In this document: in pieces, positions 52,819 through 59,464 of the stretch
Layout of the letters: every line of letters begins with the position of its first letter
How positions within the stretch are numbered: the stretch's first letter is position 1
Assembly (NCBI GenBank): GCA_021820525.1
Contig: JAKADM010000007.1
Span: 1 to 64,000, forward strand
Length of the DNA: 64,000 nucleotides
Reading direction: 5' to 3'
From: Thermoplasmata archaeon
Lineage (GTDB): Archaea > Thermoplasmatota > Thermoplasmata > Thermoplasmatales > Thermoplasmataceae
Translations under genes and position numbers: made by a program
The notes under the pieces: model-generated
The model's input: only the letters and a program-made list of their open reading frames with translations
Databases searched by the model: none
What the model was told of the DNA's origin: nothing

Positions 52819-52893
52819 GCTCCGATGGTGTAGTCCGGTCAAGCATATCGGCCTTTCGAGCCGACGACCCGGGTCCGAATCCCGGTCGGAGCA
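52819..52893 (+). tRNA. tRNA-Glu (anticodon UUC)
   Basis: Acceptor GCTCCGA/TCGGAGC pairs fully; the anticodon stem TCGGC/GCCGA encloses loop CTTTCGA (anticodon TTC); the T stem CCGGG/CCCGG encloses TCCGAAT; discriminator A. The gene has no intron, and CCA is not encoded. Confidence 0.95.
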
Positions 52894-52999
52894 TTTTATG
52901 TATCATCAAGGATAAATGTCTACAGTTAATTTTCTCAATCCTGAATCATCTATCCAGAGATTATGAAAAAGCTCAGGATTTTAAAAAGTCTCGCATTCA

Positions 53000-53932
53000 T
53001 TATATAATATCCCAAATATCAACAGAATAGGGCAACAAATATCTTATGATAATCTTGTGTTCTCTTTTCCTCGCAATTTCATATAGCAGGGAATAATACT
53101 CATATGCGCTGACAGTTGGGAGAAGAACGCTAATTTTTAATTTTTCCCCTGTAGATCTTACAAAATGCCTTAACCTCATAATATGTTCCCTGTTTGCATT
53201 TTCCCTTATAATCGAAAGTAGTCTGCTTTGAACATTCTGATTGTAAATTCCATCACTCTTGCTTATGGCATAGGCCCCCTCGGTTTCAAGGTCAACTTTT
53301 TCTGAATATAAAATCAAATTCAATTTTCCAGGCTCACTTTCATTGCTTTTCATTTCAGCCATAATTTCCTGATTTTTCATTAAGGACAATATTTCAGGGG
53401 ATTCATCTTCTGCCATCATTTCAAATGTTACCAGGGAAATTGGATATTCCGAATTTATGAGGTTATTCGTCCAGATTATACCGGGGTTTGGGCCTAGCCA
53501 GGCAATTCTTGAGTTGTCCCTATCCGATGTGTATTCAGCAAGAAGATCAGACACCTCCTCCATTTCATTGCTGTGGAATCTGGCATATACATTAAGAAAT
53601 CCACCGCTCATATCCGATCTGTTTATAACGAAAGAGTGGAGTTCCATAAGTTTGTTTATTATGGTCAGATCCTTCACATTATTGATCTTTGAATCTATAA
53701 CATATGCACTATCCTTTTCAATGGCTCCAAACTTTTTGAGCATTAGCATCAAGTTATTGCTTTTACTGTTCTTTGGAAAATATGTACTTATCCATGAACT
53801 GCCGTCTAATCTATATACGTATGCTGGAATCTTAGTTGCAAGTTCGGAAGTTGTATTAAATAAATCAGTATTTTCCCTTAATTTTAAAATTAATCTCATA
53901 TCCAGTTTTTTATCAATATCTCGAATCAGCAT
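53000..53932 (-). CDS. Uncharacterised ~310-residue protein (family copy 2)
   Basis: 310 residues, soluble, rich in Asn, Ser and Glu, no signal peptide. The centre reads HSFVINRSDMSGGFLNVYARFHSNEMEEVSDLLAEY, which aligns with TDGVIVTEVYSDNNGFHLYCKFPTCVRERLSDLI of the protein at 19594. The C-terminal third (LKISVLLPTVSAYEYYSLLYEIARKREHKIIIRYL) differs. Function unknown. A TATA-like ttaaactataac about 27 bases upstream supports the ATG. It lies next to a 440-base AT-rich gap and the GT-C-like gene, but is transcribed away from them. Confidence 0.7.
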   Translation of the reverse strand: MLIRDIDKKLDMRLILKLRENTDLFNTTSELATKIPAYVYRLDGSSWISTYFPKNSKSNNLMLMLKKFGAIEKDSAYVIDSKINNVKDLTIINKLMELHSFVINRSDMSGGFLNVYARFHSNEMEEVSDLLAEYTSDRDNSRIAWLGPNPGIIWTNNLINSEYPISLVTFEMMAEDESPEILSLMKNQEIMAEMKSNESEPGKLNLILYSEKVDLETEGAYAISKSDGIYNQNVQSRLLSIIRENANREHIMRLRHFVRSTGEKLKISVLLPTVSAYEYYSLLYEIARKREHKIIIRYLLPYSVDIWDII

Positions 53933-54372
53933 AATACAATAAATAATCTGTTATAGTTTAAATTTGTTTTGTTTTCAGATACACCGGTCCTGCTAAGAAA
54001 ATTGTTACGTAAAGAATTGCAAGGTTTTTGTGTATATATTAATAATTCGAAATAGTTCAACACAGAAAAGACTCTGAATATAAACGGGAAATTGGGTGAT
54101 AATGATATTCATATTATTTGAATAATATTAAAAATCTATTACTAATATTGTAATAAAAGATAAGACCTTTATATGAAAATACAGACATTTCCATTGGACA
54201 TAAAATTATATGATTTATTTTATGTAATTATAAAATTTATACTAATTTCAGGCGCAGAGATGAAATGAGTATGATATATTAAGCAATTTTTTAATTTAAT
54301 TGAATTCTTTAATTATCCGGAGAATCAAAAATAGAAAAACTTAATCCATAGATTTAAATTAACAGAGGATAA
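53933..54372. other. AT-rich divergent intergenic region
   Basis: 440 bases, very AT-rich, between the unknown gene (leftward) and the 960-residue membrane protein (rightward). No coding ORF seen. It holds several A/T-run strings and a short ATTCA-7-TGAAT inverted repeat (about 54106). Just before the right gene is agagg, an SD-like sequence, so this gene may have a leadered message. Confidence 0.45.
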
Positions 54373-57255
54373 ATGAGGCTTTCAAAATTTACCATAAAGG
54401 TAATATTTCTAACCGTTTTGTCTACCATGGAATTCATATTTCTATATTATGGTGACTTGTTACTTGGAACCAGTGCAGTCCCAAATTATATTTTTTTTAA
54501 AACAAACACATCAATTTTTACGGATGGTGCGGTTGAAAGCAACCTTGCATTTATATTACTCCCACTGTCCCTTCTGGGTAGCCAGATTTATACAACCATT
54601 TATCTCTGGCTGGTTTTTGTTGTAACATTCCTTTCCGTCTCCTTTGCCGTAGAATACTTTAACAGGGTATATTTTGATTGTGCTGTAGAGGACCCAATTA
54701 TTACTGCCGTGGGGATTATTGTATCTGTTAGTCTGACATTGAGTTTCTATTATTATGGAGGGCAGTTCTTTGGATATTCGCTCTTTATTGGCCTGGTACC
54801 ACTGTATATGGCATTGCTTGATCAAACCATGAACTTACGGGAGGCCTTTTTCTCAAAGAAGGGTCTGGAAAATAGTATACTGACCTCTCTTGTAATGGCC
54901 CTTTTAGTCGTGGATACAAGAACAATACTCTATGCCATATTGTTGTTTATTTCCTTTACTCTCTTTAAATTCTTACAAAGGATCAGCCTTAGAAGATTTA
55001 TCCACCTGGGCAGTTACTTCATATGGATCTTTTTCCTGTTCATATTGCTTAATCTAAAGTTTCTAATGGGTTTTTTTATGCTTAAAAGCAGTGGTATTCA
55101 GGCCATAGGAGATATAGTTCCAGTACAATTATTCATAGCTTATCAAAAATATACGCCCATATATGCATTTTCTGCAGCAGAAAACTGGTTATCTGTTTAT
55201 AATCCGTCAATGGTATTGTTTGGTTTAATACCATTTTTTGCCGGTATTTTAACCCTATTCAGGAAGCGTTTTCCATCAATGGCCATTTACCTATTTTCCT
55301 TACTTTCTCTTCTGATTATATTTGCGGTATATCTGTCCCCAATCATAAATTATGGCCTGGGCCAGACATCCCTTTACCCATTTTTAGTATATACCTATGA
55401 CACTTACTTTTTCAATATTCTTTATCCTTCCCTTCTTTACATTTTCTTTGCCATGGGCATACTGACAGTCTTAAGCCTGATCTCTAAAATGCCCTGGAAG
55501 AAAAATACCATCAGGTTAATCATGGTAATTTTCCTTGTATTTATTATAGGAAGCCAGGTGATCTATTTTCAGCCAAATGTCCAATCCATAAATCAAAATT
55601 TTAGACCGGTGCCCTTAAGCAACAATTTTGTAAAGACTGCAGATTATGTTTATTCAATCAATCCTCAGGGGAATGTGATGATTCTGGCCAACTTTTCCAT
55701 ACAGAACAACTCCTACCTGAATTTTCCCAATGCTATTACGGAAGATACGGGATGGAATGGCTGGCTAATGTCCCTTCCATCTTATCTGCTGGAACAAAAT
55801 TTTACAATGTTTGCAAGGGCCATGACATACATGGGTGTTCAGTATATAGTGTACAACTCAGAAAACTATACACAGCCATTGAATTTACTGATGCATGATA
55901 AGGGTTTGGTTCTCGAAAAGAGATTTGGCCAGATATATGTTTTAAAAAATCTTTACTTCTCCGGGAGCATAATTTCTAACCAGGGCGCATACATTGCCTA
56001 CAATATACCACAAACCATAGAATTTCTATCTTTAATGAATAAAACCATGCCGATTATTCCCTTTTATGACGTAAACAACTTCAGTAAAATTTCTTCATAT
56101 ATATCGGGGTTTATCTATCCAGCCATGTCCAATGTAACCCTTATGGAATTGGTCTTAAACGGATCAAATTCCTATGAAATAAATGCCGGTGCCATGAATA
56201 TAAATCAGGAACCCAACGGCTGGCAGATTGCACCAATAATCTGCCTCGGGGATGAAATAAATGCCATAGCTGCAAGTTATCAGAATCACGCTCCCATAGT
56301 TTTCCATCCAAAGGTACCTGACGGCTATTATGATGTAATCGTTCAGGGTGGTGTCAAGGTTGGAATTCAATATGGATCTTCCATGCAAACATTGAATTTC
56401 ACGTCAGGAAAAAGCAATGTACAGGCGGTTTTCAATCAGACAGTCTATGCGCCGGAAATTCAATCTGTTAACGCAGGAATCTTAAGAGTGCAGAATCAGA
56501 CCATAACAGTTCAATCCGGAAAATATGTGGATAACAATTATGAGCCATTTATTTCCAAAATATTTCTCATACCCCAAAAAAATTTGAATAAATTGGATGA
56601 AGAAGTCAATAATTTTTATAATGAATATAACATAGTAAAGTTCTCTCCAGATCTCAGGCAGAACATAAGCTTTAATCTTAATAATAAGAATGTGCAAAAT
56701 AACAATTTTACCGTGATTGTGACATTCAGGAATGAGCAGATGGGCCTCTGGACATATCTTCAACCAGTGACCATACCTGGGACTGTTTTTAGGGCTTCAT
56801 ATGATTATGGCCTGTACAACATTTATATTTCTAACCAGAAAAATCCAGAAATATCCTATATGTCTCCTTACGGTATGGACCTTTTGATCATAAACACCAT
56901 GTTGGATCTGGCCATTTTAGGCGCCTATGTTTATTTGAGGAGATTTAGCTCAAATGAGGATGAAGAGAGAAAGGAAAAACAAAAAAGGGTGGAAGAACCT
57001 TATGTCAATAATCAAAGGGCAATCAGGGAAAAAATAAAGATGGGTATATTCAATATTTCCCTATTCCAGATTGTATTAACTCTTTTGGCCATAATTTTGT
57101 TCACATTATTGTATTTGAACTATTCAGCCATTTACGTAGTTTCCGATCTCATATTGTTTTTCCCGGCAATGGTCATTTCCAGAGTAAGGGATTATTCCTT
57201 AAGGGAAATCATTCAAAGGTTTTCAAAAAAAGGTGGAACTGCAAGGGTAAAATGA
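54373..57255 (+). CDS. Large membrane protein, predicted GT-C/YfhO-like glycosyltransferase
   Basis: 960 residues. About 12 transmembrane segments fill the first 400 residues, followed by a large (about 460-residue) extracellular part rich in Asn, Tyr and N-x-S/T sequons, and three or four helices with a charged loop near the C-terminus (NEDEERKEKQKRVEE, about 862). Early loop D-containing segments and the text MGVQYIVYNSENYTQ then YVLKN recall YfhO-like and other GT-C proteins, which use polyprenyl-linked sugars. No GT family motif is certain. ATG start with an agagg SD about 6 bases before. It is probably cotranscribed with the FkbM gene. Base composition is more AT-rich than that of the flanking genes. 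Confidence 0.65.
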   Translation: MRLSKFTIKVIFLTVLSTMEFIFLYYGDLLLGTSAVPNYIFFKTNTSIFTDGAVESNLAFILLPLSLLGSQIYTTIYLWLVFVVTFLSVSFAVEYFNRVYFDCAVEDPIITAVGIIVSVSLTLSFYYYGGQFFGYSLFIGLVPLYMALLDQTMNLREAFFSKKGLENSILTSLVMALLVVDTRTILYAILLFISFTLFKFLQRISLRRFIHLGSYFIWIFFLFILLNLKFLMGFFMLKSSGIQAIGDIVPVQLFIAYQKYTPIYAFSAAENWLSVYNPSMVLFGLIPFFAGILTLFRKRFPSMAIYLFSLLSLLIIFAVYLSPIINYGLGQTSLYPFLVYTYDTYFFNILYPSLLYIFFAMGILTVLSLISKMPWKKNTIRLIMVIFLVFIIGSQVIYFQPNVQSINQNFRPVPLSNNFVKTADYVYSINPQGNVMILANFSIQNNSYLNFPNAITEDTGWNGWLMSLPSYLLEQNFTMFARAMTYMGVQYIVYNSENYTQPLNLLMHDKGLVLEKRFGQIYVLKNLYFSGSIISNQGAYIAYNIPQTIEFLSLMNKTMPIIPFYDVNNFSKISSYISGFIYPAMSNVTLMELVLNGSNSYEINAGAMNINQEPNGWQIAPIICLGDEINAIAASYQNHAPIVFHPKVPDGYYDVIVQGGVKVGIQYGSSMQTLNFTSGKSNVQAVFNQTVYAPEIQSVNAGILRVQNQTITVQSGKYVDNNYEPFISKIFLIPQKNLNKLDEEVNNFYNEYNIVKFSPDLRQNISFNLNNKNVQNNNFTVIVTFRNEQMGLWTYLQPVTIPGTVFRASYDYGLYNIYISNQKNPEISYMSPYGMDLLIINTMLDLAILGAYVYLRRFSSNEDEERKEKQKRVEEPYVNNQRAIREKIKMGIFNISLFQIVLTLLAIILFTLLYLNYSAIYVVSDLILFFPAMVISRVRDYSLREIIQRFSKKGGTARVK

Positions 57256-57338
57256 ATAAACATAAGAATTTCAATGCATGTCTTCACATATATTTTTAAA
57301 TATTCTTTAATACTTACAAAAATTTAAGTGACAGGTGC

Positions 57339-58217
57339 ATGGAAACAAAATTTTCAAAGAATATTTTGTATATGAAAATGATCAAAAAAAGGCTGGGGAT
57401 GGGATATTTTGATGTTTTCCTTGGTCGTATATTCACGTCAAAAAAAGATTTTGAGGTAGATATTAAGGGTAGAAAAATCAAAATAAGATCTGGAATAGGA
57501 AGTCTGGCCAGGCTTATGGATAATGGCTGGAACGTATTTCCATTGAGTGAAGATATGGTTCAGTTGGAGAATAATAACGGAATAAAAATCTCATGTAGAA
57601 CAGATATGGGCCTTGATCTTGTACAGCTGGAGGAGATTTTTATCGATGAGATTTACAAATGCCATATTGTAGATAAGAACGTTATTGACGTGGGAATGAA
57701 TAACGGAGATTCTTCCATATATTTTGCGAAGAAAGGTGCAAAAAAGGTTTTAGGTATAGAGCCTGATTTAAGAAACTATGACATTGGATTAAAAAATATC
57801 AGGGATTCCGGTGTGGATAATATGGTCACGGCAATAAATAGGGCCGTGAGCAATGAGAAATCTGTTGAAATTAAGATGTATGAAGCTTTTCCAAACTCCA
57901 ATTCTTTTCCTGAATTTGAGACAAGTCCGAAGAAGGATAATGCAAAAATATGTGTCGTTGATGGCATAACTCTTGGAGATATAATAGATATGTTTGAAGG
58001 TGAGACCATAGGTTTATTAAAAATGGATTGTGAAGGCTGTGAATATAGCAATATTGAGAAATTGGAAGAAAGGCACTTTAAAAAAATTGAAAATATAATA
58101 ATGGAATACCATCAGGGTCCGAAGAATCTACCATCAATTCTTGAAACCATGGGTTTCAGGGTTGACTTGAAAAAATATGGGGTATTTCAGGGAATGTTAA
58201 TTGCAAGTAGAATTTAA
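57339..58217 (+). CDS. FkbM-family methyltransferase
   Basis: 292 residues, SAM-dependent class I methyltransferase of the FkbM family. Seen: VIDVGMNNGDSSIYFAKKGAKKVLGIEPD (SAM loop), VTAINRAVSNEK, and GLLKMDCEGCEYSNIEKL (the FkbM signature with catalytic acid). These enzymes O-methylate sugars or polyketides. Together with the GT-C-like gene 83 bases upstream it suggests methylation of a surface glycan. The N-terminal 60 residues (MKMIKKRLGMGYFDVFLG) are basic and of unknown function. Confidence 0.85.
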   Translation: METKFSKNILYMKMIKKRLGMGYFDVFLGRIFTSKKDFEVDIKGRKIKIRSGIGSLARLMDNGWNVFPLSEDMVQLENNNGIKISCRTDMGLDLVQLEEIFIDEIYKCHIVDKNVIDVGMNNGDSSIYFAKKGAKKVLGIEPDLRNYDIGLKNIRDSGVDNMVTAINRAVSNEKSVEIKMYEAFPNSNSFPEFETSPKKDNAKICVVDGITLGDIIDMFEGETIGLLKMDCEGCEYSNIEKLEERHFKKIENIIMEYHQGPKNLPSILETMGFRVDLKKYGVFQGMLIASRI

Positions 58218-58414: not shown

Positions 58415-59464
58415 ATGGTCTGGGAATACAGGATCGCAGGGGATTCCATAAAGGTCCATATTGGGCATGGCGCATTTGAAGAACTGTGGAAAAAAGAGGG
58501 AAACATTTGTTTCATCGTGAGTAAAAATGTTAAAAATGCCCATGTAAAGATGTTTGAAAAGATTGCCCCATCATACATTATTGAGATTGAAGACGGTGAA
58601 AATTCAAAAACACTGAATTATTATGGGAATCTTATTGAAAGGCTTGCCTCAGAGAATTTTGAGCGTAACAGAAAAGTTGCATATGTCGGTGGTGGAACCA
58701 CAGGCGATCTTGTTGGTTTCCTTTCAGCCACATATAAGAGAGGGCTCAATCTAATAGGGGTACCAACCACAGTTCTATCAATGGTGGATTCCTCTATTGG
58801 CGGGAAAAACGGGCTCAATTTTAAAGGGGTTAAAAATCTGATCGGGACATTCAAGAACCCTTCAGAAATAGTTATGGATACATCCTTTATAATGGGAAAT
58901 AATGGAATGCTCTATGAAGCAATGGGGGAGATTATCAAGCATGGTTTGATGCTGGACAATTCAATAAATGAACTGTTGATGCAAAACAGTATGGAAACAA
59001 TATGGCAAGGTAACACAATTGAAAAACTGATAAAGTTGAATGTGGATGCCAAGATGGATATATGCGCCAAAGATCCTTTTGAAACTGAAAATATAAGGAA
59101 CGTTTTGAATTTTGGTCACACAGTGGGCCATGGTATAGAGGCCGTCTCTGGAAACAGGATAAGTCATGGTTATGCTGTTATGATTGGAATGAAGGTAGAG
59201 TCAGAGATTGCAAAAAACCTTGGATACAGTAATTATGATCCATGTGAGATAATTGATAGCATTGTATTGAAATACGGCGTAGATATTCCTGAACTGGACA
59301 GGCATATGCTGAAGGAGTGCGGAAATTACATAAAAAACGACAAAAAGATCAGGGATGGGACTCTGCACATACCTGTGCCTTTAAGTCCGGGCAGGCACAG
59401 GATTATTGAAATTAGAGCTTCTGAGTTCATCACTGAGATGGAGAGGGTTGGTGATAATATATGA
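58415..59464 (+). CDS. aroB: 3-dehydroquinate synthase
   Basis: 349 residues. It cyclises DAHP to 3-dehydroquinate with NAD+ and a divalent metal. Seen: YVGGGTTGDLVGFLSATYKRGLNLIGVPTTVLSMVDSSIGGKNG, GEIIKHGLM, FGHTVGHGIEAVSG and ISHGYAVMIG (metal-binding His and Glu). This is the classical bacterial-type AroB, not the alternative archaeal DHQ synthase II, so the organism can use DAHP. First gene of aroB-E-K-A. ATG start; its stop overlaps aroE by four bases (ATGA). Confidence 0.95.
   Translation: MVWEYRIAGDSIKVHIGHGAFEELWKKEGNICFIVSKNVKNAHVKMFEKIAPSYIIEIEDGENSKTLNYYGNLIERLASENFERNRKVAYVGGGTTGDLVGFLSATYKRGLNLIGVPTTVLSMVDSSIGGKNGLNFKGVKNLIGTFKNPSEIVMDTSFIMGNNGMLYEAMGEIIKHGLMLDNSINELLMQNSMETIWQGNTIEKLIKLNVDAKMDICAKDPFETENIRNVLNFGHTVGHGIEAVSGNRISHGYAVMIGMKVESEIAKNLGYSNYDPCEIIDSIVLKYGVDIPELDRHMLKECGNYIKNDKKIRDGTLHIPVPLSPGRHRIIEIRASEFITEMERVGDNI

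Follow-up and report, generated by a model that had tools for sequence, protein, structure and literature searches.

An orphan multispanning membrane protein gene and an FkbM-family methyltransferase gene in a variable tRNA-Glu/aro interval of a Cuniculiplasma-genus genome

The DNA stretch analyzed here, referred to as the window, comprises 64,000 nucleotides of contig C20 from a Cuniculiplasma-genus MAG (Thermoplasmatales; 1.54 Mb, 86% complete). The features between its tRNA-Glu gene and its aro cluster are listed in Table 1. The gene for the 960-aa membrane protein is referred to as the big gene and its product as the big protein.

Table 1. Features of the tRNA-Glu-to-aroB interval, with positions in the window
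Feature	Position	Strand	Remarks
tRNA-Glu (TTC)	52819..52893	+	ARAGORN, Rfam; conserved, bounds the variable interval on the left
Ta1207-family gene	53000..53932	-	Pfam match (PF19020, E=3.9e-68); divergently oriented versus the big gene
AT-rich spacer, 440 bp, GC 0.227	53933..54372		between the divergent Ta1207 gene and big gene
960-aa membrane protein gene (big gene)	54373..57255	+	intact ORF
fkbM, 292-aa FkbM-family SAM-dependent methyltransferase	57339..58217	+	intact ORF; PF05050 / TIGR01444
aroB (3-dehydroquinate synthase)	58415..59464	+	opens the conserved aro cluster; bounds the variable interval on the right

The first-pass annotation had described a two-gene block, consisting of the big gene and fkbM, between tRNA-Glu and the aro genes. 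Both genes were confirmed as intact open reading frames, and the placement of the block holds, except that the Ta1207-family gene lying between it and tRNA-Glu had been omitted. The spacer, in which no RNA family was matched using Rfam, is presumably the promoter region for both the Ta1207 gene and the big gene. The big gene and fkbM are separated by an 84-bp gap on the same strand and may be co-transcribed, although a TATA-like stretch is found upstream of fkbM itself, which may thus be expressed separately from the big gene. Right of the window, contig C20 carries genes for a DNA methylase (PF01555) and, after it, ResIII (PF04851) at L159:11432-15876; this pair probably represents a type III restriction-modification system.

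Base composition was assessed using the window genes of at least 150 codons as a reference (mean GC 0.406, SD 0.027; mean GC3 0.417, SD 0.037), and codon usage was compared within the 64-kb window. The GC content of both the big gene (0.364) and fkbM (0.341) falls under the window gene mean, and that of the spacer is the lowest among 12 gaps of at least 150 bp (others 0.254-0.388), in agreement with the earlier description of a more AT-rich block preceded by 440 AT-rich bases. Silent sites give a different picture for the big gene. Its GC3 of 0.401 is ordinary relative to the window mean, and few window genes have a lower codon deviation than its 0.10 (G per codon); the corresponding z of 5.9 is due to the fact that z grows with gene length. 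The AT-richness of the big gene therefore stems from its amino-acid content and not from foreign codons. For fkbM, GC3 was 0.339, approximately 2 SD low, with a codon z of 0.5. The transfer that had been deduced from composition is not borne out, since the silent sites of the big gene are host-like and the dS values of the big gene, fkbM, and aroB lie in the range of their neighbors.

These dS values were obtained by comparison with the sister species (G006), in which the whole tRNA-Glu-to-aroB arrangement is kept (89% identity for the big protein and 93% for the fkbM product). They amounted to 0.33 for the big gene, 0.17 for fkbM, and 0.25 for aroB, the remaining neighbors showing 0.21-0.29. 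For the Ta1207 gene a dS of 0.79 was found versus 0.17-0.33 for its 10 neighbors. Nucleotide identity to G006 was 97% just left of the tRNA gene and 76% in the 200-bp bin containing the tRNA 3' end, and in a base-level alignment the drop starts within a few bases past tRNA-Glu. Unusual divergence is thus confined to the stretch right after tRNA-Glu, comprising the Ta1207 gene and the AT-rich spacer (52894-54372), which suggests that these tRNA-proximal 1.5 kb were replaced or are evolving faster. The high dS of the Ta1207 gene, about threefold that of its neighbors, points to replacement by recombination. As the dS values of the big gene and fkbM are in the background range, this pair probably predates the split of the two species. 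Ta1207-family genes (PF19020) are multi-copy in Thermoplasmatales, with up to 12 per genome in this family, some of them clustered.

Homologs of the big protein were detected in three of 117 genomes of the order, namely the window genome, G006, and G005. No match was obtained in Pfam, NCBIfam, PHROGs, or PDB sequences, and a search of 400 Thermoplasmata genomes yielded no convincing relative but only chance-level stretches of 46-49 residues. Among the relatives, G006 alone has the two-gene block in synteny. In G005, a 41%-identical copy of the big protein is encoded elsewhere, on a 7.4-kb contig that also carries transposase sequence, and aroB of this genome lies in another place; a GT2 gene (PF00535) comes 3 bp downstream of the G005 copy. 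Most of the relatives are drafts with a completeness of 71-89%, but the big protein is also missing in G002 (97% complete) and in G009 (a single contig, 99% complete).

Both edges of the block were found to vary within the genus. The left flank up to tRNA-Glu, including the phosphoribosyltransferase gene beside it, is kept in G010, G007, G004, and G001. Past tRNA-Glu, where transposase, toxin-antitoxin-like, and other genes occur, it is followed by genes for a DDE transposase and a DUF3644 protein in G010, by AbiEi/AbiEii-like or Panacea-type genes in G004 and G007, the latter also containing a transposase fragment, and by PIN-domain and metabolic genes in G001. At the other side the aro cluster is kept. 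Upstream of aroB, a radical-SAM gene is present in G004 and G007 and a cluster including this gene in G002, G009, and G005; in the window genome, G006, and G010, the radical-SAM gene sits on other contigs. In G010, the next-closest relative, the genes preceding aroB encode a Mutator transposase, three products of sugar-nucleotide type (NTP-transferase, PGM/PMM, and SIS/GATase protein), and a GT2. The tRNA-Glu and aroB contigs of G010 have an orientation compatible with joining and share no overlap at their ends; as a guess, they could join as a single large island. Comparison of synteny from tRNA-Glu to aroB thus agrees with the variable locus proposed in the first-pass annotation, as the block is not kept in synteny and with equal base composition across all relatives. 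The assignment to glycan synthesis is likewise backed by context, given the GT2 gene directly downstream of the homolog in G005 and the sugar-nucleotide genes and GT2 before aroB in G010. Taken together, these data support the tRNA-Glu-to-aroB interval as a variable surface-glycan locus of this Cuniculiplasma sub-lineage.

The fkbM product belongs to the FkbM family, as it scored above the curated cut-off for both PF05050 (E=7.7e-14, 52.6 bits, cut-off 22.7) and TIGR01444 (E=4.4e-26, 92 bits, cut-off 37.7). It resembles FkbM-family methyltransferases in its full-length domain match and its glycan context, and differs from them by an N-terminal part of approximately 110 residues without family match. 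Based on family and context, it probably O-methylates sugars. Beyond the sister species, its closest relative is 37% identical. A viral source was not indicated, the best viral relatives showing only 36% identity over 165 residues or 44% over 50. The window genome has two other FkbM genes. One of these is located on contig C11 (L153:7965-15826) in a strongly AT-rich segment (0.27-0.29), together with a gene that appears GT2-like by eye and transposase-like fragments; this segment is probably another surface-glycan island in the same genome.

The topology of the big protein was modeled from hydropathy and charge and refined on conservation. In the best fit, 11 TM helices are followed by a 435-aa outer domain (about 401-835), TM12, a charged cytoplasmic loop, and TM13-14. 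Long outer loops are predicted at 27-69 (EL1) and 237-277 (EL4), with TM2 spanning 70-97 and residues 162-201 forming a hairpin. A first assignment, which placed TM2 at 56-74 and TM3 at 77-97 and had only one TM6, was rejected due to a poorer fit to conservation and charge. Between the window and G005 proteins, identity was 60% in outer loops, 16% in inner loops, and 30% in TM helices (Fisher p=4e-7), and only 1 of 399 circular shifts of the topology performed equally well. Because the topology was refined with conservation in view, these p-values are partly circular and optimistic; more independent support comes from the charge bias, with K+R at 12/46 inside versus 3/116 outside. Conservation of EL1, EL4, and EL5 (0.49-0.66) is no lower than that of the outer domain (0.47), and D28, D51, and E55 in EL1 are invariant across all three homologs (three sequences only). 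The good conservation of the membrane-proximal outer loops suggests an extracytoplasmic active site. The outer domain contains 13 sequons (N-X-S/T), whereas shuffling predicts 6.4 (p about 0.004), so that the description of a sequon-rich membrane protein with a large outer domain stands. Its counterpart in G005 contains 17 versus 6.0 expected, and 10 sequon positions are common to all three homologs.

This plan was compared with that of GT-CA enzymes carrying an outer cap (AftB, ArnT, PglB/AglB, and relatives). Of these, the GT-CA enzyme AftB combines 11 TM helices with a periplasmic cap, and in GT-CA enzymes the region between TM1 and TM2 contains two JM helices and the catalytic Asp (PMC12041299); PMT/ArnT-type enzymes have a long TM7-TM8 loop (PMC7801869). 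By hydropathy, charge, and conservation, with the topology refined on the latter, the big protein fits a seven-TM core with further TM helices and long outer EL1 and EL4. In this predicted topology, it resembles the capped enzymes in that 11 TM helices precede a large outer domain, and in a long EL1 with conserved acidic residues, a long EL4, and a conserved outer face. It differs in that sequence similarity is undetectable and in its C-terminal extension of three helices and a charged cytoplasmic loop. Against families of the GT-C clan, no Pfam, NCBIfam, or PDB-sequence match was obtained using a shallow profile (Neff 1.4), and the big protein was therefore classified as working like a GT-C enzyme and not as a member. 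AlphaFold, with few homologs available, gave a pLDDT of 31 for the full-length protein and 38 for residues 1-430, and a PDB fold search with residues 1-430, likewise uninformative, returned no significant match. The earlier label "GT-C-like" is thus plausible from topology and conservation but was not demonstrated by any profile or fold search. As the WWDYG motif is absent, the big protein is not an oligosaccharyltransferase.

Comparison of the big-protein family with four membrane proteins of glycan clusters using hhalign gave no match. DUF2079 (PF09852) proteins of Cuniculiplasma glycan clusters similarly have 7-11 hydrophobic segments and are encoded beside GT genes (L150, L155), but the hhalign probability versus the window family was below 1% for the two compared. 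A lead to PTPS_related (PF10131) was dropped, since this family was above cut-off in only 1 of 150 genomes of the class and not in the window genome itself. Elsewhere, the window genome encodes a GT2 with a GtrA/DPMS domain, possibly a Dol-P-sugar synthase. Outside the window, on contig C7 (L175:5342-11686), an AglB-like protein of 2114 aa is encoded. It contains a WWDYG stretch and matches STT3 with 20.5 bits, which is below cut-off. Its long outer part shows matches to CarboxypepD_reg and, weakly, to SdrD_B, and the protein appears unusually long for an oligosaccharyltransferase. The pilin of C. divulgatum carries N-glycans at NXS/T sequons (PMC12448462). In view of the sequon excess, the AglB-like protein, and these N-glycosylated pili, the outer domain of the big protein may itself be glycosylated.

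The reading we favor, with somewhat more confidence than not, is that of a variable glycan locus in which the big protein works like a GT-C glycosyltransferase and the FkbM protein O-methylates a sugar of the same glycan. The 11-helix membrane module would have its active site close to the membrane at the outer face, where, by analogy, it would take a sugar from a dolichyl-phosphate carrier and transfer it to a cell-surface glycan or glycoprotein. The sequon-rich outer domain might bind or position the acceptor, and methylation by FkbM would take place in the cytoplasm. No classical GT is encoded inside the window block itself. Alternatively, the big protein could be a structural surface glycoprotein or adhesin with a multi-TM anchor and without transferase activity, its sequons being AglB substrates. 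A large outer domain with 10 sequons kept in three homologs, the AglB-like protein in the genome, and the missing match to an enzyme family suit this proposal, which is nevertheless unlikely: EL1, EL4, and EL5 are conserved at least as well as the outer domain, with low values in TM helices and inner loops, while an anchor needs no such conservation, and the G005 homolog neighbors a GT2 gene. A different function in the glycan pathway, with the big protein serving as an outer-face membrane enzyme or transporter such as a flippase, polymerase, or ligase, is also improbable. Its topology and outer conservation would suit any extracytoplasmic membrane enzyme and a GT-C profile match is absent, but 11 TM helices combined with an extended EL1 and EL4 and an outer domain at the C-terminal side correspond specifically to the GT-CA plan.

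With respect to the history of the locus, an ordinary, vertically inherited gene pair, whose variability is an artefact of incomplete drafts, would agree with the host-like silent sites of the big gene, the full synteny and background dS in G006, and the incompleteness of most relatives. We consider this quite improbable, because the block is also missing from G002 and G009, both flanks occur in relatives beside other neighbors, and the G005 copy lies with transposase sequence away from aroB. Tyrosine recombinase-mediated integration of a recent genomic island at tRNA-Glu would account for the sharp divergence edge at the tRNA 3' end, the variable right flank of tRNA-Glu among relatives, and the sporadic distribution beside a tRNA gene. 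TRNA-flanked, low-GC islands with content varying among relatives have been reported in acidophilic archaea from acid mine settings (PMC12302457), which the interval resembles in these respects. It differs from them in that no integrase is encoded between tRNA-Glu and aroB, no second copy of the tRNA 3' end (allowing up to 3 mismatches) was found in the window, and the big gene has host-like codon usage. As the dS of the big gene, fkbM, and aroB also lies in the neighbor range, such an origin is very unlikely. Repeats within the block were limited to short, chance-like pairs.

Variable glycan loci as such are common. In related Thermoplasmatales, envelope-biogenesis genes beside transposases have already been described (PMC10354927), as have islands bordered by tRNA genes (PMC12302457). 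The locus is thus ordinary in kind, and the orphan big-protein family is its new part. Extending the favored reading, we tentatively propose that the big protein founds a new lineage-restricted GT-C family and acts with FkbM to place a methylated, species-specific sugar on the wall-less Thermoplasmatales surface from an exchangeable tRNA-Glu/aro locus. If true, the surface-glycan machinery of wall-less acidophilic archaea, about which little is known, would gain an uncatalogued membrane enzyme family, and the tRNA-Glu/aro interval would mark where close Cuniculiplasma species differ in surface-sugar genes. Such differences could bear on virus and partner recognition.
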